Assembly (NCBI RefSeq): GCF_001886815.1
Contig: NZ_CP018099.1
Coordinates: 4,400,501 to 4,464,500 of the forward strand
Direction of reading: 5' to 3'
DNA from: Caldithrix abyssi DSM 13497
GTDB taxonomy: Bacteria > Calditrichota > Calditrichia > Calditrichales > Calditrichaceae
DNA length: 64,000 nucleotides
Part shown: positions 1-31,682 of the stretch, in pieces
How the letters are laid out: each line of letters starts with the position of its first letter
Numbering within the stretch: position 1 is the first letter of the stretch
Notes under the pieces: model-generated
Database searches by the model: none
Told to the model about the DNA's origin: nothing
What the model saw: only the letters and a program-made list of their open reading frames with translations
Translations under genes and position numbers: made by a program

Positions 1-679
1 CGGCCTGCGCCCGGTCGATGTAGGTAACCTTGGGGCCAAAGTTGGAAATATTTGCGCCAACGCTTAAGCGATTGTCAAAAATTTCGTAACCCGGTCGCCA
101 CAAAACGCCCACGTCAACCGCAAAGCTGGTGGCGCGCCCGTCGCGGTCTTCGGAACCGACGGACACATCGCTTAAATTACTCTGAATAATTTTAGCGTTG
201 ACGCCAATGCCCAGGTTAGGCTTTAGTTTGGTGGCATAAGCCAGCGAAATGGCGTATTCAAAAGAATCGAACGTCCCCAGCTCCGCGCCGGTTTCATCCG
301 TCCACACATTTTTCCCCAGGTTCAAAAAGGTAATACTGGCGCCGAACATGCCAATTCCTTCAACGTAGTAACGACCGGCGGCAAAATCGTAGAACAGATC
401 GCTAAAGTTGAACTGCGGCAACCAGCGCGAGTGCATCAACGAGAGTTGACGCGGCCTGTCCACGGCCGGGTCTTCATATTGAAACGCCAGTCCGGCAGGA
501 TTCCAGTAGATCGCCGTGGCGTCATTTACCAACGCAACGCCTGCTTCGCCTAAACCGCCATTACGGGCGCCGGGCGCGATTAACAAGAACGGAACGGCCG
601 CCTCGCCCTGAGCGTAAAGGTCCTGTCCGAGCATGGAAACCATTAAAACGGCAAGCAGAATGATTGCAAACTTTTTCAT
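1..679 (-). CDS. PorV/PorQ-family outer membrane protein, 3' part beyond window
   Basis: The gene starts at ATG 679 behind a good ribosome binding site (GGAGGAATTAAT) and stays open to the window edge, giving about 226 residues. It begins with a signal peptide (hydrophobic stretch after MKK, then an AQG cleavage-like site). Next comes the PorV/PorQ-family N-terminal pattern: a Gly-rich 'PGARNGGLGEAGVAL' stretch, then 'NDATAIYWNPAGLA'. Alternating hydrophobic strands follow, as in the FadL-like barrels of this family. PorV works in type IX secretion, binding secreted proteins and delivering them to the PorU sortase. Other members of the family have unknown roles. A second family member lies at 22.1-23.1 kb beside the PorU-like gene, so this one may be a paralogue rather than the PorU partner. 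Confidence 0.85.
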   Translation of the reverse strand, partial: MKKFAIILLAVLMVSMLGQDLYAQGEAAVPFLLIAPGARNGGLGEAGVALVNDATAIYWNPAGLAFQYEDPAVDRPRQLSLMHSRWLPQFNFSDLFYDFAAGRYYVEGIGMFGASITFLNLGKNVWTDETGAELGTFDSFEYAISLAYATKLKPNLGIGVNAKIIQSNLSDVSVGSEDRDGRATSFAVDVGVLWRPGYEIFDNRLSVGANISNFGPKVTYIDRAQA

Positions 680-18295: not shown

Positions 18296-18330
18296 TTTAA
18301 AGCCCCGCTACCTGGCAACGGGGCTTTAAA
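18296..18330 (-). terminator. strong intrinsic terminator after the T9SS-associated gene run
   Basis: A perfect 12-bp stem (TTTAAAGCCCCG / CGGGGCTTTAAA) with an 11-base loop, followed on the minus strand by a short T-rich stretch. It lies 9 bases beyond the stop of the barrel gene at 18339 and faces the end of a nine-gene run. It also separates that run from prfB. Confidence 0.85.
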
Positions 18331-18338
18331 AAATGCTG

Positions 18339-19478
18339 TTACTTTTCTTCCTGCAAAATTTGTTTCAACTCTTCCAGTTCCTTTTCGGCCTGTTCACGTT
18401 CTTTTTTCAGGCGTTCCAGCTCTTCTTGCACGTCTTTGGTGCGATCACGCTCCTGAACGATTTTTTCGAAAAACTCAACACGTTTTTTGAATTTTTCGCG
18501 CTCCAGCTCAGCGCTGCTCAATCTACGCGTAGCTAAAGGCCATATCTGTACATTGACGCCCATGTGCACGCGCCAGGAACAGTAATTGGGAAGGTTGTAA
18601 TCCGGGTTGGCCAGCGCCGCCACCTTGGTAAAATCCGTGGTATTTTTATCCGCCGAAATACGAATATCAATACCCAGATCGGCAGAAATCCACGACATGG
18701 GTTTGTAGCGAATACTGGGCGTGATGTAGGTATAATTTTCACGGCTGTAAACAAATTCATCCGGTTCCTTAATATACGCAATACCCATTAATTCCAGACG
18801 GTAATCAAACATATCTGTAGGATATACCAGTCCAAAGGCATATTGCAGTTCTTGAGAATTTCTCGTCGCGTCATATTTTTTGCCTCTGTAATCATAAACC
18901 GTTCTTCCCGCTTCATTATGGTTCCACCAGCCCAGGTTCAAATGCAGGCTAAGGGAACGATCGGGTAGATAGGGATCAAAAAAGTACGACCACATGCCGG
19001 TAAAGGCGTATTCCACCGCGCCGCTGGCATATTCAACGAACGGATAGTTGTGTTTTTCTCCAACCGGAAAACGAAAGGTTAAAGCGCCCGCCATGTTCAA
19101 CTTTCTTTCCAGAAAGGCAAAATTACCTAATTTTAAGGTCGTAAAAATATCGCCCGGCAAATTGTATTCATTGGAATAGTGCGTGTCCTGATAAATCCGC
19201 GGCGAAACAATAAGATCCAGATTATCTAAAATTCCCCAGCTCAGGTAAATCTGACCGACCACCAGCCAGTAATTTGCCGCTCTAAAATTCTGAGGCGATT
19301 GCGACCCCACAAATTCCGTGGCGCGCGTAAAAAAATTCATGTCAGAATACAACGTCAGCACACTCTTGCCCAGCGTTTGAGCGCTGTGCGTGTGTAACAT
19401 ACTTTTGCTTCCTATTGGCGGCTGGCTATAAACTAAGGAAATACTCAAAACCAACAGGATCAGGCTGACTTTTCTCAT
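18339..19478 (-). CDS. exported beta-barrel-like protein with C-terminal coiled coil, paralogue 1
   Basis: 379 residues, not recognised as a named family. A signal peptide (residues 1-18, ending near YSQ) precedes about 300 residues of alternating aromatic/hydrophobic strands. These include 'NYWLVVGQIYLSWGILDNLD', 'RIYQDTHYSNEYNLPGDIF' and 'FPVGEKHNYPFVEYASGAVEYAF', consistent with an outer-membrane barrel. The last ~55 residues, from 'RRLSSAELEREKFKKR', are charged heptads forming a coiled coil. The next gene upstream is a clear paralogue with the same blocks in the same order. The coiled coil could reach into the periplasm and bind a partner or peptidoglycan; that is inference. It is the last gene before a strong terminator. 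Confidence 0.8.
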   Translation of the reverse strand: MRKVSLILLVLSISLVYSQPPIGSKSMLHTHSAQTLGKSVLTLYSDMNFFTRATEFVGSQSPQNFRAANYWLVVGQIYLSWGILDNLDLIVSPRIYQDTHYSNEYNLPGDIFTTLKLGNFAFLERKLNMAGALTFRFPVGEKHNYPFVEYASGAVEYAFTGMWSYFFDPYLPDRSLSLHLNLGWWNHNEAGRTVYDYRGKKYDATRNSQELQYAFGLVYPTDMFDYRLELMGIAYIKEPDEFVYSRENYTYITPSIRYKPMSWISADLGIDIRISADKNTTDFTKVAALANPDYNLPNYCSWRVHMGVNVQIWPLATRRLSSAELEREKFKKRVEFFEKIVQERDRTKDVQEELERLKKEREQAEKELEELKQILQEEK

Positions 19479-19550
19479 TTCAACCTCCCAGAAACGATTT
19501 TATTTTGCTAAAACTTTTCGACTTCATATCGATTTAAAATATAAAACTTT

Positions 19551-20735
19551 TTAATCTTCTTCCAATAATTTTTTCAATTCCTTAATTTCCTGCTCCGTCT
19601 CTTTGCGCAATTTTTTCAGGCTTTCAATTTCAGACTGAATATCCTGAGATCTTTCTTTTTCGCGCAATACGGCGTCAAAATATTCTCTGCTCTGCTTTAA
19701 TTGTTCGCGCTCGTACAAATCTTCGGCTTTTTGTACGCCGCTCTTTAATATTTTTAGATTTAGATTTGCGCCAAGGTGAATTCGCCACGAAGGGTAGTTT
19801 TTAGGTAAATCAAGGGTTTCAGAAATGTCGGGTATGATGGGATTGGTCCATTGCCGCACCGCTGGAGACAGACGAAAATCAGCGCCCAGGTCAAACGACG
19901 CCCACTCAACCGGTTTGTATCGAATGCTCGGAGATAAAAAGGCCCACTCTTCGGCGCTGTAAACAAAGGCATCGGGTTTTTGCAGGTACAGGATGCCCGA
20001 CAACTCCACCCGGAAATCAAACATGTCCGTGGGGAAAACCGCGGCCAGGGCCATGCGTAAATCTACCGAATTTCTGGTTCCTATTAACTCCTCGCCTTTT
20101 AAATGAAGTACGCCCTGCGGATCTCGATAGTTTCTCTCGTAGGTGTAAACCGTTCGCCCTTTTTCATTGTGATTCCAGATGCCAATATTGTAATGGAAAC
20201 TCAAGGCCCGATCCGGGAAATAGGGGTCGAGATAAAAGGAAAGCGCGGTCATAAAACTGTATTCAAAAGCGCCGCTGGCATATTCAGCAAATGGATAATT
20301 ATGCTTTTCACCGGTGGGAATGCGAAAGCTGGTTATAAAAGCGGCGTTAAAGTGGCCATAACCAAAAGCAAAAGAGCCTGCGCGCAAAGTTAGAAAAAGA
20401 TCGTCCGGCAAATTGAACTCATTGCTGTAATGCGTATCCTGGTACACGCGGATACCCAGACTGGCGTCAAAATGTTCGCCCACGCCGTAGGTAAAAACCG
20501 TATTGCCTGCCACCAGCCAATAATTTGCCGCCCGAAAATCTTGTGGCTTTAAATTCCCCACAAAATCGGCCACTTTGGTGTAAAAGTTCATCTCGTTGTA
20601 AACAAACAAACGACCGGGCTCAACGGTACGGCCTGTTTGCGTGTACATCAAAGTGCGGTCAGAGTTAGGCAACTGCCCGAAAACAAATTGACTGCAGAGT
20701 AAAAGAACGATTGGAATAAAAAATAATTTTTTCAT
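19551..20735 (-). CDS. exported beta-barrel-like protein with C-terminal coiled coil, paralogue 2
   Basis: 394 residues with a signal peptide cleaved near 'VFGQ' (about residue 20). The body shares long blocks with the gene at 18339-19478: 'QDFRAANYWLVAGNTVF', 'RVYQDTHYSNEFNLPDDLF', 'PTGEKHNYPFAEYASGAFEYSF' and 'PSWRIHLGANLNLK'. The final ~60 residues are again a charged coiled coil ('QDIQSEIESLKKLRKETEQEI'). The two genes are tandem duplicates 72 bases apart. The middle segment differs, with an insertion around 'NYRDPQGVLHLKGEE'. Function unknown; outer-membrane location inferred from the strand pattern. Confidence 0.8.
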   Translation of the reverse strand: MKKLFFIPIVLLLCSQFVFGQLPNSDRTLMYTQTGRTVEPGRLFVYNEMNFYTKVADFVGNLKPQDFRAANYWLVAGNTVFTYGVGEHFDASLGIRVYQDTHYSNEFNLPDDLFLTLRAGSFAFGYGHFNAAFITSFRIPTGEKHNYPFAEYASGAFEYSFMTALSFYLDPYFPDRALSFHYNIGIWNHNEKGRTVYTYERNYRDPQGVLHLKGEELIGTRNSVDLRMALAAVFPTDMFDFRVELSGILYLQKPDAFVYSAEEWAFLSPSIRYKPVEWASFDLGADFRLSPAVRQWTNPIIPDISETLDLPKNYPSWRIHLGANLNLKILKSGVQKAEDLYEREQLKQSREYFDAVLREKERSQDIQSEIESLKKLRKETEQEIKELKKLLEED

Positions 20736-20808
20736 GGCGCTCTCCCAAACCAGATTCTTGGCTTTTCTGATTTGATTTAGTTAAAGATAGACAAAAAATT
20801 TTGTTTTT

Positions 20809-21309
20809 TCAATTATTTACTCTCGACGCTAAGACAAAAACGTTTACAATTATTGCCAGATCTCGAAAGATGGCCACCATCTTGGTAAAGACATCCTGAA
20901 TGCTGCCGGATACAATAATCGTATCGCCAGGCTGCAGCGTCGGCAAAGATGAAGCATCCCCCGTCTTCAGGAATTTTTCGAGATTCACTTTAATAACTTC
21001 CTGGTTTTTGCGAACCACTCGAACATCATTTAAACGAGCCGTGCTAAGCGGACCGCCGGCCGAAGAGATCAGATCGATTAAGGAGTAGGAACTGGGCACG
21101 CTGTAAATGCCGGGTTTTAACACATGGCCCCACAAATTGACCGTCACCAGCAACACGTCGCCGTTGCCCAATATGTATTGCGCGGCGCGATTGGGTTGCT
21201 GCATCATCTGTTGTTTTTTGGAAAACATCTCGTTATAATTCTGCGCATTTGAAAAAACAGGAAGCAAAAAAAAGCTCAAACCTATGATCAAAATTGCCAA
21301 TCGTTTCAT
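20809..21309 (-). CDS. SLBB-domain exported protein (polysaccharide-export-like)
   Basis: About 166 residues from ATG 21309, which overlaps the stop of the upstream lipoprotein gene (TGATG). A signal peptide ends near 'SNAQ'. The segment 'YILGNGDVLLVTVNLWGHVLKPGIYSVPSSYSLIDLISSAGG' (about 47-88) is an SLBB (soluble ligand-binding beta-grasp) domain like those of Wza-type export proteins. A second conserved part reads 'LQPGDTIIVSGS'. It ends in a hydrophobic stretch that may be a membrane anchor. It lacks the large channel domain of Wza. In this neighbourhood it may bind a glycan or the neighbouring barrels; not proven. Confidence 0.82.
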   Translation of the reverse strand: MKRLAILIIGLSFFLLPVFSNAQNYNEMFSKKQQMMQQPNRAAQYILGNGDVLLVTVNLWGHVLKPGIYSVPSSYSLIDLISSAGGPLSTARLNDVRVVRKNQEVIKVNLEKFLKTGDASSLPTLQPGDTIIVSGSIQDVFTKMVAIFRDLAIIVNVFVLASRVNN

Positions 21310-22088
21310 CAATCATTCCATCTGATTTTAAATAACTGCCAATTGGATTCAGAACCTTCAAAATATTGATTTACCACGTCTTCTCGTCCCACGCAATCGA
21401 TTCTCCAGCGATAGTCGCCATTGGGGAAAAGCGATTTGAGCTCGTTGCCTTCCAGCCGAAACGTCTGCGGCGTCTGATAATTGGAACGGATCATGCGCAC
21501 AAAGGCCAGCGGATGAAAATCAGCGCTCACAAATCTTTCAATCCGCAAAATGTATTGATCCGGCGTATTACCCGATTGAATCCACCATTCGAATTCCATC
21601 ACAGGTTCGCTCACCACGCTGGCGTTTCCGTTCAAAGACAGCTTAACGGCCTTTTCCAGCAACCTGTAAGAGACCGTATCCGAAGGTAAACTCTCTTTTC
21701 CCGTATGGCCAACCGCCGTAACATAGTAGTAGTATCGTACATTATTACTCAAATCTTGAGTGTCATAATACACGGAATCCACTTTGCCCGACACATTGGC
21801 CGGAACCTCTCCGACCACTCGATAATTTTTGATCCCCTGCGGATCTGCGCTGCGGTACACCAAAAATCTGTCCAGATTATTAATTTGATGGTGTCGATAC
21901 CATTGAATTTGTATCTTATTCGGCTCATTTTCCGGAGTGGGCACGGCGTCAATCCCGGGTTCACCGGCCAGCGTGTCGGCTCCCGCCGGTCGTAAAACCA
22001 TACGAACAGGATCCGGCTGAAAAACCTGTTCGCCGGTCGGTTGTTGACATGCAGTCAATAAAATAATGAAAATTATAATCCAATACAT
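21309..22088 (-). CDS. lipoprotein with Fn3-like domain
   Basis: 259 residues. The N-terminus 'IIIFIILLTACQQP' is a lipoprotein signal with lipobox LTAC, so the mature protein should be lipidated at Cys14. From about residue 55 a fibronectin type III-like fold is suggested by 'IQIQWYRHHQINNLDRFLVYRS' and 'RYYYYVTAVGHTGKES'. A second beta-rich domain follows ('MEFEWWIQSGNTPDQYILRI', 'NGDYRWRIDC'). It starts 7 bases after the PorV-like gene and overlaps the SLBB gene, so it is co-transcribed with both. No enzyme motif is visible; an adaptor role at the outer membrane is possible. Confidence 0.75.
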   Translation of the reverse strand: MYWIIIFIILLTACQQPTGEQVFQPDPVRMVLRPAGADTLAGEPGIDAVPTPENEPNKIQIQWYRHHQINNLDRFLVYRSADPQGIKNYRVVGEVPANVSGKVDSVYYDTQDLSNNVRYYYYVTAVGHTGKESLPSDTVSYRLLEKAVKLSLNGNASVVSEPVMEFEWWIQSGNTPDQYILRIERFVSADFHPLAFVRMIRSNYQTPQTFRLEGNELKSLFPNGDYRWRIDCVGREDVVNQYFEGSESNWQLFKIRWND

Positions 22089-22095
22089 ATTTTTT

Positions 22096-23106
22096 TTAAA
22101 AAACCAAAGTTAGTGAAACTCGATGTGAATTCCCAAGATCGTGCCCCTGGAAGGCATAGTTTACGCGGAACCTCCAGAGCAGCACTCCGGCGCCGGCGGT
22201 AAGATGACCAAAATTGCTGCCCACTCTCAGGGCAAATAACGATTTGATTAATAATTCCGCGCCAAGATGCGTATTGCCATCGTATTTGGTGTTAACATCA
22301 TAAGCCAGGATCAAATCGCTGTCTAAAAAGGCCAGCGGCTGGCTGTACTGCACGCCATATTTAAAATTTCGTTTTAAACGATCTACATGCCTGGATTCGG
22401 TATCCCAGACCATGCGCGTTTCGGCTAAGTCCTGAACATTCAAGCCAAAATTCAAAGCGCCGTAATATTCTCCGGCAAAGATATCGTTCAGGTTCAGGCT
22501 CATTAACCATCCGATATCGATCCCTATGCCCGTCGCTTTGTTACGATCCAGTTGCTGGCTGATGTATTTCAGATTTAACCCAAAGCCGAATTTAACGGGA
22601 ATTTCAAAATATTGCCAGCCCAGGTCAAACTTTGTGGGGATCAGGCGAGCAAAGGTAAAAATAAAGACATCGTTCTGATTGGAAAAATAATCGACCGGGC
22701 CATAGGTCAACTGCTGAGCCTGGCCATGCAGCCTCTGATAGGCGGTTATGGGGCTGTCTTCATCAAAATCGTAGCGCGGAATTTCATCAATGCTCAAACG
22801 CATCCACGAAATGCCCACTACCGAATTTTTCATCACGGGCAAAACAAAACCAAAGTAGCTTTGCTGTTCCAGCTTGTTAAAAAGATTGGCGTACATACTG
22901 CCGGCTTGCAGGCGCTCAACCATGGCCAGACCTGCCGGATTCCAGAAAGGCGCCGTCACCTGCCCGGTGGCCGCAACGCCCGCGCTACCCATTCCCATGG
23001 TGCGCGCCCCCACGCCAAGCTCCAGAAAAGAGGCCGCATACCTGCCGGATTGCGCAAACACTAGTTGGATCAGAAAAACGAATATTAAAATTCCTTTTGT
23101 CTTCAT
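22096..23106 (-). CDS. PorV/PorQ-family outer membrane protein, partner candidate of PorU
   Basis: 336 residues. A signal peptide (residues 1-18, 'FAQS') is followed by 'GRYAASFLELGVGARTMGMGSAGVAAT' and 'APFWNPAGLA', the N-terminal signature of the PorV/PorQ barrel family. Alternating strands run to the end, which closes with 'HRVSLTLVF', a terminal aromatic as barrel proteins often have. Its ATG overlaps the stop of the PorU-like gene (ATGA). In Bacteroidota porU and porV are also adjacent and their products form the surface attachment complex, so this copy is the better PorV candidate of the two in the window. Naming it porV rests on neighbourhood. Confidence 0.85.
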   Translation of the reverse strand: MKTKGILIFVFLIQLVFAQSGRYAASFLELGVGARTMGMGSAGVAATGQVTAPFWNPAGLAMVERLQAGSMYANLFNKLEQQSYFGFVLPVMKNSVVGISWMRLSIDEIPRYDFDEDSPITAYQRLHGQAQQLTYGPVDYFSNQNDVFIFTFARLIPTKFDLGWQYFEIPVKFGFGLNLKYISQQLDRNKATGIGIDIGWLMSLNLNDIFAGEYYGALNFGLNVQDLAETRMVWDTESRHVDRLKRNFKYGVQYSQPLAFLDSDLILAYDVNTKYDGNTHLGAELLIKSLFALRVGSNFGHLTAGAGVLLWRFRVNYAFQGHDLGNSHRVSLTLVF

Positions 23107-26100
23107 TGTAATCTTGCCATTTTTAATACATGCTTTACTGTTTTACCACGATATTTAGCTTTAATCACCGCAAAGTAAACGCCGTTGGCCACCTGGTTTC
23201 CGTCGTCATCCGTGCCGTCCCAGATCAGCTCATGGTAGTTGGGCTCTAACAGATTGTCGTCTAAAATGGTTGGATCCAGGTCCAGCATTCTGGAACGAAT
23301 TAATCGGCCGGAAGTGGTGTAAATCTTAATATCCAGATCATCGATCTCTTCATTGCTCTCGATATAATAGGCAATAATCGTGCGATCTTTAAAAGGATTG
23401 GGATAGTTACCGTACACGATGAGGTTAAACCCTTCCGCCACCGTAAAAGGTACGACGGCGCGGGCCACGTTGCCGTTAACATCCGATACTTCCAGAAACA
23501 ATTCATGCTCTCCGGGCGCCAATTCCGGATTGAAGATGATTTGAATATTTTTAGCCTCTCGACCGCTGTCCGGCAATGTTACGCTTTTGTCCAGCAATTG
23601 ACCGTTCTTAATCACGTAATCATCATCGATCTTTAAGTTCAGGGTGCGATTAAAGTCCACCCCGTTCACATCCTGCAGTAAAATGCCTAAAGTCGGGCGA
23701 TGCGGAATGAGCATGTGGCCCACCAGCGGGCGGCCGTTAACCGAAATTTCTAGTAGCGGCTCGCTCTCGTCTGTGGTGTAAAACGGGGCGTAAATTCCCG
23801 GCGCAGAAACCGTAGTTTGCAACTCGTTGCCCGACCATTCGCCGGGCAGAGCCGACCAGGCGTTTAAAAGCGGATCGAAGCGGTAAATGGAAATTTTATC
23901 CCTGGGATAACCATTTTTAATGGAATCCAGGCGCACCGCTAATTTTCCGTTAAAATTAGCTCCGCTTTCGAGGGTAAAACTTAACTTAAGGCCCAGCGTG
24001 TCGGCCTGATTAAGCGCCTGCACAAATTTTAAATCTTTTTGATCTGTCTGGCGGATCAAATCGGAAATTTGCTGACTTTCAAAACCAAAAAGGAATGGCG
24101 CGGCAACCGTCTGCGGGGCTACCTCGAACGACCAGTTTTGATAAAGCTGTATTTTTTGGTGGTTTTCACCATCCAGAGAAGTTCCCAGCTCCGGCGAAAT
24201 CACCACATAGTTCTGAAAAAGCGTCACGCTTACATGATTGTTCTGTTCGTCCCTTTCTTCATACACAGAATCGACATCCACCACGATCCTGATCTGATGA
24301 TAGGGTTGATAGGCCAGATTGTCCGGCAGGGGCGCTTCCACGGGCATCTCTTTTTTACCGTTAAAAGCCACCTCCAGCACGGCAAGCGGCTCGCTTTCCG
24401 AAACGACATTGTCAAAACAGGCCACGCGCACCCTGTCCACGGGCTGATCCGAGTTATTGAGTACTTTAAAAACAAGCGCCAGTTTTGTCTGACCGCCCCA
24501 GGCAATGCTGGCCGGGTCAACCAACAGGTCCGGCCTCGGGTCGTTTACATACACTTTATTCCAGTGCTGGGTGATGGTTTTCCCTTCGTCCGTTGTAACC
24601 TGCACGTCAAAAATCTTAGTTCCGCCCCTGCCAAAGCCGCTAAAAGCCTGGCTGACAAACATCGTATCGTTCACAGCCGCTAATGGCAAATTGACATTGT
24701 AATTTTCATAGCTCATTTCATCAAACAGATTAATGATGCGCGCTTCCCGGATGGGTTGATCGGTCTTTAAAATCGCCTTAAAAACAATGGGCTGGTTGAT
24801 CGTTGGGTCAGACGGCTCGGTCCATATTTTTTTAACCAGCGGCTGATTAACCGCCAGTTTAAGAAAGCCGTTTGCGCTTTGCGCCTGGTTAGTGGCAAAC
24901 ACCTTAACGCGCAGCTCCTGCGGCTTTATTTCGTCCGGCAACCGAAAACCTGTTTCAAAAGGAGCGCTTGCATTAACATAGTCTCCTTTAAACAGCGGAT
25001 AATTCTCTTCATCCGTCACCTGCACAAATAGCGAAGCCGGCTCAGGGAAATCGGACATTTTAATGCGCAGCGAATCGCCGGGAAGCAAGACCTCCGGAGT
25101 GGCCGTAAGCGACAATTTTGCTTTTGCAAACGGTATTTTTAGAGACGGATCCCCTAAAAGGTTGTATTGAGAGACCTGAGAATGGCTGAGACTGCCGTAG
25201 CCAAAGGTGTAAAATCTCCCCTCTTCGGTGTAGTAAAACGGGCTGGCCAGGTAAAACATTTTCATCAAATCGATTGCTTCTCCAATGGTGAATTGACCGT
25301 CCCACAAAAAATCCGGCAGGCTCCAGGCAATGGCAAAATCGTTGTAAATCCAGCCCACGCCCGAAGAGCCCAGAAATCCAATTGCCCCTTTTTGTTCGCT
25401 TAACACCAGTTTTTCGCCCAGCGAATGGCGCCCGGCATTGGCAAAGCTGGCGGTAAAACAGGTCAGGCTGCTAATAAACGGCAACCTGTAACCGTTTTCC
25501 AGCCGCTCCACATCTTCCAGCCCCATCAAGCCGGCGTCGGCCCAGATCGCCCCGCCGCCATGGCCGACAAAGTTGATAAATGAAAGTCCGCGATTAAAAG
25601 CATTAATCACATCCTGGCTGCTACCAAAATGGGGGTCCGGCTGGATGGCTTTGTTTTCAATAGAATTGATCTGATCGGCGAATAAAGCCTGCGGCAGCTT
25701 ATGATTGATCAGCCGTAAATTTTGCGCCCGAAAAACCGGCTTATTGGTCAAATATTCCCGCGTTCCGTCATAACCGGCGATAAACAGGGTTTGGTTGATC
25801 CAGCGGCCGTTCGGGTCTTCCGGGAAATGTTCGATTTTATCAATGTAGTTTTGTAATTCATAAACCGTACTAACCGGCAGTCGGGCCACAATCACTTCCG
25901 GCAGGTAGTCTTCGCCTTCCAGCAGCGCATATTGATAATCGCTTTCCGCCGCCCCGAACTTAACGGTGTTGTAAAAAATGGTGGGCACCAGGTCGGCCGA
26001 GGAGCGATAATTAAGCGAAGCGTCGCCAACCAGCAGCACATATTCCAGCGGCCCGCTCTGATCCCATTCTTTGTAAGCGTACCTCAAAAACTCTTTGATA

Positions 26101-28160
26101 GCCAGCGGCGATTTAATTCCGTAGTTAAACAGATCGTAAATATCGCGCACCGTCACTACTTCCGGCAAAAAGCCCTGGCTGGTTTTCACCTCCCGCAATC
26201 TTTGACATTCCTGAATAAAAAGATCATGGGTGATGATCAGATAGTTTGACCTGTTGGTTTTATTTAACAGCGAGGCCTGCGCGTCTTCTGCCTTCCAGGG
26301 ACGATAAGCCTCAATGCCGTCCACTTTTTTCTTCTGATCCTGGGTTAAGGCGACATATTTTATCGAAGGATTTACCACCTCGTCCTGAAAACTAATCCCG
26401 AAAGAAAAGCGGCCGGTCTCTTCGTCTGTTACGGGTTTAATATCCACGTTGGTAATTTTGCTGATACCGATTTTGTACACATCAACATCTTTATTGGAAA
26501 AGCCGTCAATATTAAATTGAATGCGATCGCCTAATTTTACAAAACGGCCGTCAAAAAAATCACGATCCACATGAAACTTCAAATAGTCATTATGAGCGCG
26601 GTACTTTCTTAAATAACTCAATTCAAACCAGTTGAGCACCACAATATCGGTAACGCCCGTCTGGAACATGTCCACTTCCAGACGGTTTGTTCCGTTATTT
26701 AAAGCCGTTTGATCGATCTTCACCGCCGAATCGGCATTGGTAATTACCCAGCTTTGCTGATCTTTCCAGCCGTCGTTGGGATTAACCGTACCCACCAGAT
26801 GCGCCACATTTCCTTTGCCGCGCAGTTTTAAGGTCACTTTGTGCCCCATTAGCGGGTTGGTTTGATAATCAAAAAACGATTTGCCGCGGAACATGGCTTT
26901 AACCACCACCTCTGCGCCGTAGTCGGCCGGATCCGGAACTTCAAAATCGTAGCCCACTCCGCCGGGCGCGGAAACGCCGCCGTCAAAATAGTAATTGTCA
27001 ATTTCGTAGGCCGGTCGATTTAACAGCTCCGGCGTGTGACCAAATTTATGGGCCACAGCGTTCCGTTCGATATGGAGCGTGTCGCGAAAGGCAAAAGGGC
27101 TGATGACCAGTTGATTGGCCGCCGTATTAATTCCGCCGCTTTCTTCAAGCAAACGATATCCGCGATCGTCTTGATAGACCAACCAGTACACATTGGCGTC
27201 GCTGAACGGATCAGAATACAGCTCCGGAAACTGCTTTTGAAAGGTTCGTTTGTTGCTTTCGCCCCAGAATTCAAAATAATCTTCCAGATCGAAGGTGTGA
27301 TCCTGTTCGCCCTTAAAATAAATGGGAATCTCTTTGCCTTTATTGTACAGGTGTAAATTTTGCGGGTCAACCCGATTCAGCGGAAAGCCGGCTTTTAGCA
27401 GATCTTCGTAGGTAACCTGATAGATTCCGTCTTCGGTTACGGTTAACTTGAAAACGATCTCATTTTGCAGAACGCTCTGCCAGCGCATCAACTGTTTGAG
27501 GCGCGTATTGTCTTCTGTAAGAGTTTTGTTGGCGGCTGAGGCCAGCGGAAACAGCTGTCGTCCGCCGTTTAACGCCACCGCTTTTAAAATTCTGGACACC
27601 GGCGTGGCAGGTTCTTTGGTGTACAATGGCACATTCTGGTTTTCGCCCAGAGCTTTGCCGATTTTTACCTCGATTGATTTCAACAGAGTAACGGTCTGAT
27701 GATCTGCGGCAACGCGCACCGGGAATATTTGCAGGGCAAAAACCGGATAATTGCCCATTAAGCCAAGATATTTCAGCTCTACCCAGGGCTTGCTATCTTT
27801 ACGCGGCATGTTTTCATCTGTGCCGCTTACATGCAGGTAGCGCTCCACGCTCGTGGTTTGAGTTTTGAGCGAACCAACGGTCAACGGCGGCATCGTGCTA
27901 TCGCTCAAATTCAAGAACTTTACAATAACCGGCACGTAGTTTTGATGAATGTCCTGCGTAAAAGAAGCTTGCCGATAGGCGGCATAAACGCTGCTTCCCT
28001 CTTCGATCCACTGCGGCTGCGCCAGAGAAATTTTCAAATGCACAAACCGATCGGTCTGTTGAAGGATTTTAATTTGAACTTCCGAGGCCCACAACCCCGC
28101 GCTCATGATAAAGACAATCGCTAAAATTCTTTTAATCCACATCGTTACACTCATAACCAC
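23103..28160 (-). CDS. porU: PorU-like gingipain-family (C25) protein with T9SS sorting tail
   Basis: Up to 1685 residues; the exact start is unclear (GTG 28160, ATG 28154 or ATG 28142, the last directly before the signal peptide 'IKRILAIVFIMSAGLWA'). Around residues 650-1010 lies a C25 peptidase domain: 'YLIITHDLF', 'VLLVGDAS', 'INFVGHGGG' with His867, and 'SLTCFTASF' with Cys901. The 34-residue spacing matches the His-Cys pair of gingipains. Beta-sandwich domains follow, and the last ~100 residues are a type A sorting domain ('YGNYPNPFKDRTIIAYYI' ... 'WDGTDDDGNQVANGVYFAVI'). PorU is the T9SS sortase that cleaves these tails and joins cargo to lipid. This one is some 500 residues longer than the Porphyromonas enzyme, so a secreted protease is the alternative. 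The PorV-like gene directly after it favours PorU. Confidence 0.88.
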   Translation of the reverse strand: MVMSVTMWIKRILAIVFIMSAGLWASEVQIKILQQTDRFVHLKISLAQPQWIEEGSSVYAAYRQASFTQDIHQNYVPVIVKFLNLSDSTMPPLTVGSLKTQTTSVERYLHVSGTDENMPRKDSKPWVELKYLGLMGNYPVFALQIFPVRVAADHQTVTLLKSIEVKIGKALGENQNVPLYTKEPATPVSRILKAVALNGGRQLFPLASAANKTLTEDNTRLKQLMRWQSVLQNEIVFKLTVTEDGIYQVTYEDLLKAGFPLNRVDPQNLHLYNKGKEIPIYFKGEQDHTFDLEDYFEFWGESNKRTFQKQFPELYSDPFSDANVYWLVYQDDRGYRLLEESGGINTAANQLVISPFAFRDTLHIERNAVAHKFGHTPELLNRPAYEIDNYYFDGGVSAPGGVGYDFEVPDPADYGAEVVVKAMFRGKSFFDYQTNPLMGHKVTLKLRGKGNVAHLVGTVNPNDGWKDQQSWVITNADSAVKIDQTALNNGTNRLEVDMFQTGVTDIVVLNWFELSYLRKYRAHNDYLKFHVDRDFFDGRFVKLGDRIQFNIDGFSNKDVDVYKIGISKITNVDIKPVTDEETGRFSFGISFQDEVVNPSIKYVALTQDQKKKVDGIEAYRPWKAEDAQASLLNKTNRSNYLIITHDLFIQECQRLREVKTSQGFLPEVVTVRDIYDLFNYGIKSPLAIKEFLRYAYKEWDQSGPLEYVLLVGDASLNYRSSADLVPTIFYNTVKFGAAESDYQYALLEGEDYLPEVIVARLPVSTVYELQNYIDKIEHFPEDPNGRWINQTLFIAGYDGTREYLTNKPVFRAQNLRLINHKLPQALFADQINSIENKAIQPDPHFGSSQDVINAFNRGLSFINFVGHGGGAIWADAGLMGLEDVERLENGYRLPFISSLTCFTASFANAGRHSLGEKLVLSEQKGAIGFLGSSGVGWIYNDFAIAWSLPDFLWDGQFTIGEAIDLMKMFYLASPFYYTEEGRFYTFGYGSLSHSQVSQYNLLGDPSLKIPFAKAKLSLTATPEVLLPGDSLRIKMSDFPEPASLFVQVTDEENYPLFKGDYVNASAPFETGFRLPDEIKPQELRVKVFATNQAQSANGFLKLAVNQPLVKKIWTEPSDPTINQPIVFKAILKTDQPIREARIINLFDEMSYENYNVNLPLAAVNDTMFVSQAFSGFGRGGTKIFDVQVTTDEGKTITQHWNKVYVNDPRPDLLVDPASIAWGGQTKLALVFKVLNNSDQPVDRVRVACFDNVVSESEPLAVLEVAFNGKKEMPVEAPLPDNLAYQPYHQIRIVVDVDSVYEERDEQNNHVSVTLFQNYVVISPELGTSLDGENHQKIQLYQNWSFEVAPQTVAAPFLFGFESQQISDLIRQTDQKDLKFVQALNQADTLGLKLSFTLESGANFNGKLAVRLDSIKNGYPRDKISIYRFDPLLNAWSALPGEWSGNELQTTVSAPGIYAPFYTTDESEPLLEISVNGRPLVGHMLIPHRPTLGILLQDVNGVDFNRTLNLKIDDDYVIKNGQLLDKSVTLPDSGREAKNIQIIFNPELAPGEHELFLEVSDVNGNVARAVVPFTVAEGFNLIVYGNYPNPFKDRTIIAYYIESNEEIDDLDIKIYTTSGRLIRSRMLDLDPTILDDNLLEPNYHELIWDGTDDDGNQVANGVYFAVIKAKYRGKTVKHVLKMARLQ

Positions 28161-28175
28161 CTTTACACTCTAATC

Positions 28176-28979
28176 CTAATCTGTTGATAATGAGAAGAAT
28201 CGGGTTATTTTGCCCTGAGGTTTAGGCGTAAAAACTTCATTCAATTTTTTACGCAGCATGCTTTCCGTTAATCCGCGCACCAGTTTTCCATTTTCCGCAT
28301 AGGAAATCATCCCCGTTTCTTCCGACACGACGATAATCAGGGCATCTGTCTGTTCAGAAAGCCCGATAGCCGCTCTGTGCCGCATGCCCAGAGCCGGATC
28401 CAGCGACGGATTTTGCGAAAGCGGCAGCACCGTTTTGGCCGCCACCAGAATATCGTTTTGAATGACCAGCCCTCCATCGTGCAGCGGCGAACGCGGATTA
28501 AAAACCGAACTGATCAACTGCTTGGAAACCTTGGCCTGCAGAGTTATTCCCGTTTCAATGATCGATTTTAAGCTCATGTCTCGCTCGATGATGATCAATG
28601 CTCCAAAATTTTTGCGCGATAATTCCATCACCGCCTGGACAATCTCGTCAATAAAATGCAAATCGCCGACCTTCACAATTTTACGGATCAAACGGCTTTG
28701 CCCGATAAAAACCAGCAGGCGGCGCAATTCCGGTTGAAATAAAATCACGAATGCCAGCACCCACACCGTCTTTAAGCTGGACATAATCCAGGTCAGGGCG
28801 CTCATGCCCAGCAGCTCACCGACCATCGAAACGACGATAATCACCAGCAAACCGGTGAACATGCGAATGGCCACACTGCCTTTTAAAAATTGATACAATT
28901 GATAAAAGATCGTGGTAACGATGGCAATATCAATCAGATCAATTATGGTTACCGGAATAAATCCTATTTTAAATAACAT
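28176..28979 (-). CDS. cdaA: diadenylate cyclase CdaA (c-di-AMP synthase)
   Basis: 267 residues from ATG 28979, which overlaps the folP stop (TGATG). Three N-terminal helices (about 9-30, 36-58, 62-82) are followed by a DAC domain with 'LHDGG' at 166-170 and 'RHR' at 200-202, the two motifs that bind and join ATP into c-di-AMP. Usual CdaA carries DGA; Gly in the third position occurs in some relatives. CdaA is membrane bound and controls turgor and cell-wall balance in many bacteria. No cdaR or glmM gene is adjacent. It sits between folP and the PorU-like gene, 15 bases before the latter. Confidence 0.93.
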   Translation of the reverse strand: MLFKIGFIPVTIIDLIDIAIVTTIFYQLYQFLKGSVAIRMFTGLLVIIVVSMVGELLGMSALTWIMSSLKTVWVLAFVILFQPELRRLLVFIGQSRLIRKIVKVGDLHFIDEIVQAVMELSRKNFGALIIIERDMSLKSIIETGITLQAKVSKQLISSVFNPRSPLHDGGLVIQNDILVAAKTVLPLSQNPSLDPALGMRHRAAIGLSEQTDALIIVVSEETGMISYAENGKLVRGLTESMLRKKLNEVFTPKPQGKITRFFSLSTD

Positions 28980-30133
28980 CAATCCGTCTCAAAATATTGC
29001 ACTGCTTTTAGAATTTTTAAAGCGTCCTGCGTGGCCTGCACATCATGGACGCGCACAATGTTCGCCCCGTTTTGAACGGCCAGAATTTGCGTGGCCAGGC
29101 TGCCGTAAATTCTTTCGTCCACCTCTTTATTCAAAATTTTACCGATAAACGATTTGCGCGACGTGCCCATTAAAATCGGGCGTTGTAAAAAGGTAAAATC
29201 TTTCAGGTCTCTAAGCAAGTGTAAATTATCTTCCAGGCGTTTGCCGAAGCCGATACCCGGATCGATAATAATTTTGCCGATCCCCGCGCGCTCCAGTCGT
29301 TCAATCCGCTCTTCAAAATAATGATAGACCTCTTCTACCACATCTTCGTAATACGGATTGTTCTGCATATTTTGGGGCGTCCCTTTAATATGCATGATGA
29401 TAATCGGGCAGTCGAAATCGCGCACCACCTCAATCATTTTATCATCAAATTGCGCCGCGCTGATGTCGTTAACTATATCTGCGCCGGCTTTTAGCGCCGC
29501 CCGGGCAATACTGCTTTTGTAGGTATCCACCGAAATCAAAACATCCGATTTACTGCGTAATTTTTCAATGACCGGGATCACTCGCCGCAGTTCTTCTTCT
29601 TCAGGGACGGGCTCTGCGCCGGGACGCGTGGATTCGCCGCCAATATCGATCAGTAAGGCGCCTTCCGCTTCCATCTGCAGGGCGCGCTCAACCGCTCTGT
29701 CCCTCTCGTAAAAACGACCGCCGTCGCTGAAGGAATCGGGCGTAACATTCAAGATGCCCATGATCAACGGCCCGCGATTAAAATCGAGCGTTTTGTGGTT
29801 CACCGTCCATACCGGAGCGGAATTGTCAAATCGGGCTCTGATCATTTCCTGCAAACGCAACGGCAGGTCGCGCCCCCCATTCCTTTCGCTCAATTGACTG
29901 AAGCGCATTTCGTCCGGAACGATCAAAGTTTCATTACGCTGCGCATCATGACGAAAAAAGTAAAAAGCTCCATTGCGCTGCAGCTGTTTTAGCTGCTCCA
30001 GCTCAAACGGTTCTGCGTCATTTATTTTAAAGAACAAGCTCCCTGTAAACTCTGCCGTCAGTTTCAAATTGAATTTTTCATTAATCTCTTTGATGCGTTG
30101 ACGACTGTTTAGAAGAATCGGCCTTAGCTGCAA
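28979..30133 (-). CDS. folP: dihydropteroate synthase with N-terminal extension
   Basis: 384 residues from TTG 30133, which has GGAGG nine bases upstream. The C-terminal ~265 residues are a normal DHPS TIM barrel: 'MGILNVTPDSFSDGG' (125-139), 'DIGGESTRPGA', 'DIVNDISA', 'IIIDPGIGFGK' and the terminal 'IVRVHDVQATQDAL'. It condenses 4-aminobenzoate with dihydropterin pyrophosphate in folate synthesis. An extra ~115 residues precede the barrel; such an extension occurs in some bacterial lineages and is of unknown role. The gene overlaps the TPR gene by 53 bases and cdaA by 1 base. Confidence 0.94.
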   Translation of the reverse strand: MQLRPILLNSRQRIKEINEKFNLKLTAEFTGSLFFKINDAEPFELEQLKQLQRNGAFYFFRHDAQRNETLIVPDEMRFSQLSERNGGRDLPLRLQEMIRARFDNSAPVWTVNHKTLDFNRGPLIMGILNVTPDSFSDGGRFYERDRAVERALQMEAEGALLIDIGGESTRPGAEPVPEEEELRRVIPVIEKLRSKSDVLISVDTYKSSIARAALKAGADIVNDISAAQFDDKMIEVVRDFDCPIIIMHIKGTPQNMQNNPYYEDVVEEVYHYFEERIERLERAGIGKIIIDPGIGFGKRLEDNLHLLRDLKDFTFLQRPILMGTSRKSFIGKILNKEVDERIYGSLATQILAVQNGANIVRVHDVQATQDALKILKAVQYFETD

Positions 30134-31682
30134 TCTTTTCTTCCTCCATTTGAATTAAAACGCTGCGAATCCCGGCCATGGCTTCTTTTGCGTACGTATC
30201 GTCGTCTCCGGTTTTACGGGCAACGCGTTCGCGAAAATACTTAAGCGCAGAATCCAGCTTGCCCATTTTTCTGTAGATCATGCCCACGTAAAGATACGAA
30301 TCCAGATGGCGATCCATCTCGATGGCCTTGAGAAAATACGGCAAGGCGGTGTTGTACTCATCCAGCATGTAGTAACATACGCCTAAATTGTAATAAGAAT
30401 CCGAATCATCGGGGAATTCTTCAAACAACGCTTTGTAAATGGGCAGGGCCTTTTTTACATAATTTGTTTTAATGTACAGGGTTCCCAGCAAACTGAGCAT
30501 CTCCGGATCTCCAGGATGAATTTCTAAAAATCGGTTAATGATATTAATCGCTTCCTGAATAGAGCCCAGTGTGCCTCTGCCGGAAAGATAGATTTCGTTG
30601 GCCAGTTGATAAACCGCGTCGCGATAACCGGGGTCCAGATAAATAGCCCTTTTTAAAATTTGCACGCGGCTGTTGTAGCCGATGTCTTTTAAACGGTCGG
30701 GGAGCAAAAAGCTTAAATTAAAATGTACGCGGCTGTTTTCCGGATCTTCCACGTAGGCCTTTTTTAAAAACATTTCAGCCGCGGTGTATTCTTTTTCGCG
30801 AATCAACATGCGTCCCATCAGCAAATCGATTTCCGGAGTGTTTTTACGCTGTTTGACAATCGGCACCAGAATCTGTTTGGCCTTTTCAAAATCGGGATTT
30901 TTAATGGGCACATATTTGGCGCGTTCCTGATCCACATCGACCTGCAGCCCTTTTTCAATTAAAACGGCCGCTTTTAAAGTTCTGGCCGGAATATCTTCGC
31001 GACCTTCAACAAGGGCCAAAACACGCGCGTAATCTTTATTGTACAATGCCAGACGCGCCGCCAGAATGGTGCGATCAATTTGCGGGATACTCGGCGTGTC
31101 TTTAAACAGGCCTAACTCACCATCCACCCGCCGGATGAACCAGCCCACTCCCTGCTCTTTTTTCCCCGCAATCTGCACGCGCTTATTCTTTTTCACATCC
31201 AGAACCAGGCATGTCATTTGTCCATTTTCAATGCGCGATTCCACAATAAAACGGGGGCGCAAGGCTCTGGCCGTTCTTTGCCATTCCGCATATTGGCTCC
31301 TCTGGCGCGGCTTAATGGTTTCGAAAAGCCATTCCCAGCGATGCACCAAATAGCGATCGTTCGTATTGTTCAGCGCCGCTTTTTCAAACGTTTCCGTTAA
31401 CAAAAATTCTTCAGGAGTTAAAGACAGGGTGTCTGATATTTGAGTAGGCAAAACGACAACACGTTCCTGGGGCTTTGGCGGCTGGGTAATGAACCAGAGG
31501 GCTGCATAAAAAAGAAAGGCGGCAAGATTTAAAGTAATCAGATTTTTCTTCCATGTCGCCGGACTCATCAGTTCGGAGTTTTTCAGAAAGAAGAGCGAAA
31601 GGTTGATGACAAACAATACAATGAACAGTAAAAAAATCCCCCCCGGAATGCCGGAGGAAAGAAAAGAAATCAGCTCGCCCAT
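30081..31682 (-). CDS. membrane-anchored tetratricopeptide-repeat protein
   Basis: 533 residues. Two hydrophobic helices near the N-terminus (about 13-32 and 48-66) are followed by a ~150-residue domain with no recognised motif. From about residue 215 to 510 come repeated helix pairs of TPR type: 'AEMFLKKAYVEDPENSRVHFNLSF', 'ALPIYKALFEEFPDDSDSYYNLGVCYYMLDEYNTALPYFLKAIEMDRH' and 'ALKYFRERVARK'. TPRs mediate protein binding, so an inner-membrane scaffold is likely. It starts the run TPR-folP-cdaA-porU; its upstream gap (31683-32164) is the most likely place for the promoter. Confidence 0.85.
   Translation of the reverse strand: MGELISFLSSGIPGGIFLLFIVLFVINLSLFFLKNSELMSPATWKKNLITLNLAAFLFYAALWFITQPPKPQERVVVLPTQISDTLSLTPEEFLLTETFEKAALNNTNDRYLVHRWEWLFETIKPRQRSQYAEWQRTARALRPRFIVESRIENGQMTCLVLDVKKNKRVQIAGKKEQGVGWFIRRVDGELGLFKDTPSIPQIDRTILAARLALYNKDYARVLALVEGREDIPARTLKAAVLIEKGLQVDVDQERAKYVPIKNPDFEKAKQILVPIVKQRKNTPEIDLLMGRMLIREKEYTAAEMFLKKAYVEDPENSRVHFNLSFLLPDRLKDIGYNSRVQILKRAIYLDPGYRDAVYQLANEIYLSGRGTLGSIQEAINIINRFLEIHPGDPEMLSLLGTLYIKTNYVKKALPIYKALFEEFPDDSDSYYNLGVCYYMLDEYNTALPYFLKAIEMDRHLDSYLYVGMIYRKMGKLDSALKYFRERVARKTGDDDTYAKEAMAGIRSVLIQMEEEKIAAKADSSKQSSTHQRD

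Follow-up and report, generated by a model that had tools for sequence, protein, structure and literature searches.

A long PorU paralogue lies in a conserved gene block with a PorV-family barrel, a lipoprotein, an SLBB protein and predicted outer membrane barrels in Caldithrix abyssi: a candidate second type IX attachment module

What kind of surface machinery is encoded by a run of genes that joins a cyclic di-AMP (c-di-AMP) synthase to a sortase-like peptidase of the type IX secretion system (T9SS) and several envelope proteins? This question is raised by a locus of Caldithrix abyssi DSM 13497, which we analysed within a stretch of 64,000 nucleotides (G000:C1:4400501-4464500, hereafter the window) of the single-contig 4.98 Mb genome. 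An earlier note had read a nine-gene unit closed by a terminator here, and the run and its terminator are borne out, with all nine open reading frames on the minus strand. The conserved unit is, however, smaller and older than that note assumed; the first three genes (encoding a TPR protein, FolP and CdaA) are treated here as conserved neighbours. We consider it somewhat probable that the core, which consists of a long paralogue of PorU, a PorV-family barrel, a lipoprotein, a short SLBB protein and a barrel, forms an ancient second T9SS attachment module, parallel to the canonical one and linked to the export of polysaccharide. Relatives at the genus, family and class level were Calditrichota metagenome-assembled genomes, and a profile search covered 385 genomes, 345 of them outside this phylum; loci, genomes and families of the collection are cited by L, G and f numbers.

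The peptidase, which matches the C25 family with an E-value of 6.5e-82, had been taken for the T9SS sortase itself and proves to be a paralogue. Its scores against the PorU model NF033707 (294 bits for the protein, 225.6 bits in a genome scan) fall below the cut-off of 420, a canonical PorU scoring 789 bits is located elsewhere in the genome (4539630-4542899), and a midpoint-rooted tree separates 27 canonical from 34 long sequences in two clades (support 1.0 and 0.81), the long form being the sister clade; together these rule out the window enzyme as the canonical PorU. The dyad His867/Cys901 is invariant in all 61 aligned PorU sequences and aligns with the GHGS and AC positions of gingipain R; the surrounding motifs differ by PorU type (GHGGG and TCFTG versus GHGSP or GHGDP and ATCD, in most members). 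The intact dyad and the homology to PorU suggest that the long enzyme would act as a sortase rather than as a plain protease. At least one NF033707 match above the cut-off is present in 36 of 40 Calditrichota genomes, most of which also carry the long form. Since the C. abyssi genome additionally encodes SprA (a frame of 2108 aa), a PorZ-like protein (187 bits, below the cut-off of 260) and 34 PorV-family matches, the window operon stands alongside a canonical attachment system. A search for GldM found no match in this genome, but its control likewise matched nowhere, so the result does not establish absence.

The gene adjoining the long PorU encodes a protein that exceeds the cut-off of 90 bits for the PorV/PorQ family; the adjacency is kept in relatives. 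The pair resembles the putative PorU2 and PorV2 of NCBIfam in combining a PorU-related peptidase with a PorV-related barrel, but falls outside both models (222.7 bits against a cut-off of 450 for NF052324; 98.7 bits against 325 for NF052325). The genome's top-scoring PorV-family match (312 bits; genome 4400091-4401101) extends across the left border of the window (1-601). The reading frame of the proposed Fn3 lipoprotein stands and its lipobox cysteine is invariant across 20 aligned sequences, while the fn3 assignment is weak (E=0.0019, under the gathering score). As read from sequence, the core proteins carry export signals.

Within Calditrichota, the order long PorU-PorV-lipoprotein-SLBB-barrel is kept in 26 of the 27 loci with enough contig, the lipoproteins of L062 and L067 being detected only by tblastn or the lipoprotein profile; the sole exception is G039 (L060), in which PorU is elsewhere in the genome. 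From PorU through PorV and the lipoprotein to SLBB, most neighbouring genes overlap or are separated by only a few bases. The specific SLBB profile matched 37 of 40 genomes at E<1e-20 and the barrel family is present in 38 of 40. In a named genome collection, a search for this SLBB yielded 34 loci; nearly every one carries the label Calditrichota or Caldithrix, and a few have another phylum label or none. The search patterns were drawn from Calditrichota, so distant forms could be missed. Many relatives have, between cdaA and PorU, a large gene whose product ends in a T9SS C-terminal domain, and this gene is absent from the window. The inserts encode 1100-1670 aa and are possible cargo (L046:12575-16831, with a G8 domain; L047:2389-6468; L058:11569-16572; L063:12354-15737).

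Outside the phylum, the order long PorU-PorV-lipoprotein-SLBB recurs at L147-L150, L153, L155, L156, L158, L159, L162 and L171, which span seven families (f57, f13, f158, f123, f60, f244 and f146); at L147 some 4 kb separate PorU from PorV, and L151 (f86) has PorV-lipoprotein-SLBB. The linkage to porU and porV in relatives, on whose loss the earlier note would have abandoned its reading, is therefore strong both in the phylum and in seven families beyond it. At L155, L158, L162 and L171 the SLBB gene is followed, inside the PorU operon, by a gene for a Wzc-type polysaccharide co-polymerase (PCP)/tyrosine autokinase, identified at L162 and L158 through Pfam or NCBIfam and at L155 and L171 through a profile match. 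SprA is found in 75 of the 345 outside genomes, and the lipoprotein marker (E<1e-20) is confined in this sample to SprA-positive genomes (19/19; Fisher p=3e-14, relatedness ignored). The SLBB family at E<1e-20 occurs in 22 outside genomes, 19 of them with SprA (p=3e-11, relatedness ignored). Canonical PorU exceeds its cut-off in 15 of the 19 lipoprotein-marker genomes, and one more has a truncated match at 416.8 bits; two PorU lineages thus coexist in Calditrichota and in other phyla. One lipoprotein match (G183, L174) lacks a neighbouring PorU and could be a different gene. At L154 (G229) cdaA, SLBB and barrel are kept, PorU and PorV were not found, and a lipoprotein-like fragment, roughly 70 codons long, lies between cdaA and SLBB.

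The earlier note had suggested that the SLBB protein and the barrels handle a glycan side of the complex. For the SLBB protein this gains real support from its Wzc/PCP neighbours in relatives (four of them within a PorU operon) and its Wza/OPX-like fold; for the barrels, which are predicted to be 12-stranded unlike the 18-stranded partner of known short OPX proteins, it is not supported as stated. The SLBB domain is clear (PF22461, 41.9 bits; PF10531, 37.8 bits, cut-off 27), and a predicted structure (mean pLDDT 71.8, pTM 0.47) gives a beta-grasp with a C-terminal helix, the nearest folds being Wza (2j58), 7xff and the class-3 outer membrane polysaccharide export (OPX) protein WzaB (9n9a). The Poly_export domain PF02563 gave a non-significant match (E=0.14) over the first 18 of its 77 positions, and only 2 of 16 family members give even a match of this kind. 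With no significant match among these 16, the reading as a true OPX protein was rejected; speculatively, the weak match may be what is left of Poly_export. A match to the repeat protein Tako8 was rejected as a repeat artefact.

OPX proteins are defined by Poly_export plus SLBB, and short ones are paired with 18-stranded barrels (PMC9603273, PMC9601211), so neither the window SLBB protein nor its barrel is a member as defined. A PCP gene lies near SLBB in relatives and at a second copy in C. abyssi, not at the window locus: at L076:7556-10440 (genome about 3693555-3696439) the second short SLBB gene adjoins that of a Wzc-type protein of 788 aa, and SLBB-Wzc pairs without an adjoining PorU also occur at L152, L160, L161, L163, L165 and L166. 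In a midpoint-rooted SLBB tree (158 columns), the Calditrichota sequences group with L147-L150 and L153 at support 1.0; every member of this group belongs to a PorU operon, and in most a barrel gene comes next. SLBBs from PorU-Wzc operons fall among those tied to Wzc alone. This topology suggests repeated recruitment of a Wzc-partner SLBB into PorU operons, or repeated exchange with them.

Both barrels of the window form a tandem pair, an arrangement seen in Calditrichota families f1-f3, with a single copy in f4-f6. The AlphaFold2 model of barrel-2 (mean pLDDT 80.9, pTM 0.71) has 12 strands by manual count and a helix at 337-393. This predicted strand number does not fit an 18-stranded partner of the EpsX/Wzp type, and kinship with PorV/PorQ was rejected at an hhalign probability of 0.9%. 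The barrel resembles FapF, NanC and COG4313 channels in fold and size, yet the best alignments reach only 8-10% identity, and its coiled coil is C-terminal. FapF is also reported to have a coiled coil. When the PDB was searched with the barrel sequence, all matches were coiled coils aligned to its tail, and a PADLOC defence-system scan of five locus proteins gave no match.

Taken together, these data are consistent with the following working. Cargo would exit through the SprA translocon and be brought or anchored by the PorV-family barrel, and the long PorU would cut the C-terminal signal of the cargo by its His-Cys dyad and transfer the cargo onto a surface glycan, a step proposed because the homology to PorU is accompanied by a retained dyad. 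Because of the SLBB fold and the Wzc adjacency, we infer that the OPX-like SLBB protein, docked on an inner-membrane Wzc/PCP, could convey a glycan across the periplasm, which the 12-stranded barrel (or the C-terminal helix of the SLBB protein) could carry over the outer membrane; the lipoprotein would bridge the sortase and glycan parts. A more specific and tentative proposal is a dedicated machine in which a Wzx/Wzy-type polysaccharide would leave through a barrel and an OPX-like protein lacking Poly_export and be handed directly to the second PorU, so that in several phyla, alongside the canonical attachment complex, part of the T9SS cargo would sit on a capsule-like polymer rather than on lipopolysaccharide.

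The system most similar to the sortase half is the PorU-PorV-PorQ-PorZ complex of P. gingivalis, with which the locus shares a C25 sortase-type enzyme with a PorU-like C-terminal domain, a PorV-family barrel and SprA in the genome. It differs in that the window enzyme is longer and coexists with a canonical PorU and a PorZ-like protein, and the SLBB protein, the lipoprotein and the coiled-coil barrels do not feature among the described components of that complex. In P. gingivalis, PorZ hands anionic lipopolysaccharide (A-LPS) to PorU, and that A-LPS pool is proposed to travel by an Lpt-independent route (PMC8545088); the chain-length protein WzzP shapes A-LPS (PMC3684754). In several lineages a PorU-type enzyme is encoded in one operon with an OPX-like protein and either a barrel or Wzc, which would supply concrete candidates for the route by which the glycan anchor of T9SS cargo reaches the surface. 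The glycan half is most comparable to the class-3 OPX/composite translocons of Myxococcus (EpsY-EpsX, WzaB-WzpB), which share a small exported SLBB protein, a PCP/Wzc gene adjoining it (in relatives) and a barrel gene adjoining it (here); by this analogy the SLBB-barrel pair may work like an OPX/barrel pair. The differences are the missing Poly_export domain, the barrel of predicted 12 rather than 18 strands and the coupling to a T9SS-type sortase. Among the papers searched, none joined PorU with SLBB or Caldithrix with type IX secretion, and the word "secretion" does not occur in the published C. abyssi genome analysis.

Hairpins at the downstream end of the run and between ftsH and the TPR gene bracket the run at both ends (Table 1), and terminator-like matches across the region are about as numerous as chance would give (23 against an expected 23.9). 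The junctions TPR/folP, folP/cdaA, PorU/PorV and lipoprotein/SLBB overlap, and the remaining gaps are 15 bp (cdaA/PorU), 7 bp (PorV/lipoprotein), 73 bp (SLBB/barrel-2) and 72 bp (barrel-2/barrel-1). TTG-N17..20-TAnnTTT elements are present in both of the longer gaps, and two congeners, L041 and L042, share the element that precedes barrel-2. The same element occurs in 7 of 34 Calditrichota SLBB-barrel gaps against 1.9 expected by base composition. A single uninterrupted nine-gene transcript is therefore not established.

Table 1. Features of the run and its borders (window coordinates)
Feature	Coordinates	Strand	Remarks
TPR protein with hydrophobic N-terminal segments	31682-30081	-	TPR families; before folP in several relatives; conserved neighbour
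folP, dihydropteroate synthase	30133-28979	-	TIGR01496 353.7 bits; conserved neighbour
cdaA, diadenylate cyclase	28982-28176	-	TIGR00159 233.5 bits (cut-off 188.8); conserved upstream neighbour
Long PorU paralogue, C25 (gingipain/PorU-type) cysteine peptidase	28160-23103	-	1685 aa; PorU-like C-terminal domain
PorV/PorQ-family outer membrane barrel (shuttle/anchor type)	23106-22096	-	NF033709 99.3 bits
Lipoprotein with fn3-like and Ig-like regions	22088-21309	-	Invariant lipobox Cys14
Short SLBB protein, OPX-like, C-terminal hydrophobic helix 139-165	21312-20809	-	PF22461 E=1.1e-10
Promoter-like element before barrel-2, TTGAAA...TATCTT[T]	20812-20784	-	Also fits TTG-N19-TAnnTTT; shared with congeners L041, L042
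Barrel-2, predicted 12-stranded outer membrane barrel	20735-19551	-	AlphaFold2; C-terminal coiled-coil helix of 57 residues
Barrel-1, tandem paralogue of barrel-2 (46% identical)	19478-18339	-	Tandem pair in f1-f3 only
Intrinsic terminator, end of run	18330-18296	-	Perfect 12-bp stem TTTAAAGCCCCG / CGGGGCTTTAAA, T tail
Terminator-like hairpin between ftsH and TPR gene	32087-32051	-	17 pairs

Several observations weigh against an attachment module coupled to polysaccharide export. The strand number of the barrel departs from that of known OPX partners (12 predicted versus 18), the SLBB protein lacks Poly_export, and in Calditrichota it adjoins the barrel rather than Wzc, the Wzc seen in C. abyssi itself lying 0.7 Mb off beside an SLBB paralogue. 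Outside the phylum, the operons at L172 and L173 have no SLBB nearby. The genus-conserved promoter-like element argues against one simple transcript and would permit separate expression of the barrels. Unrelated housekeeping genes also stay together in the region, so that some of the synteny may be inert, and the proposal, including the hypothetical cargo of the long PorU, is drawn from sequence and predicted structure.

The strongest rival, which we regard as unlikely, holds that PorU-PorV-lipoprotein is a T9SS module and that the SLBB protein and barrel belong to a separate polysaccharide export pathway sharing only the operon. The gap with its promoter-like element before barrel-2 would suit such a division, as would the SLBB relatives found with Wzc alone and the PorU-PorV-lipoprotein operons L172 and L173. 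However, the PorV-lipoprotein-SLBB junctions overlap or are separated by a few bases in much of Calditrichota, and in the seven outside families SLBB remains tied to PorU-PorV-lipoprotein while the next gene varies (barrel, Wzc or an Lrp-type regulator). The regulator, of Lrp/AsnC type, lies after SLBB and before prfB at L156:10364-10855 and L159:10371-10841.

A reading in which the long PorU would be a surface protease instead of a sortase and the barrels would be FapF-like channels for polypeptides, in an operon that exports or matures a surface protein polymer, appears improbable: the closest barrel fold is indeed FapF, a functional-amyloid secretion channel, the barrel has a coiled coil of its own and the C25 family includes plain proteases such as gingipains, but NanC and COG4313 score similarly as barrel folds, the PorU-like C-terminal domain and PorV partner indicate the T9SS surface, and SLBB and Wzc indicate glycans. 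It is very improbable that slow rearrangement of the surrounding housekeeping stretch (ftsH-TPR-folP-cdaA ... prfB-lysS) is all that keeps the envelope genes together, since, although the same genes flank the block in Calditrichota and at L156 and L159 outside it, the core order survives without those neighbours at L148, L153, L158, L162 and L171.

With regard to the upstream neighbours, the CdaA and dihydropteroate synthase assignments both exceed their family cut-offs, and the CdaA_N domain (PF19293) adds 47.3 bits. The cdaA gene is upstream of PorU across Calditrichota and directly before it in five families outside the phylum (L156, L159, L167, L172 and L173). The earlier caution that the tie to c-di-AMP is positional only stands, as judged from gene order, though the position is ancient and conserved across phyla. 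A literature search linking cdaA, folP, c-di-AMP and Bacteroid- found no reports. Downstream of the run, prfB (window 18110-17960) contains an apparently typical programmed frameshift region, GAGGTTATCTTTGAC, and its listed open reading frame begins past an upstream ATG that is in a different frame.

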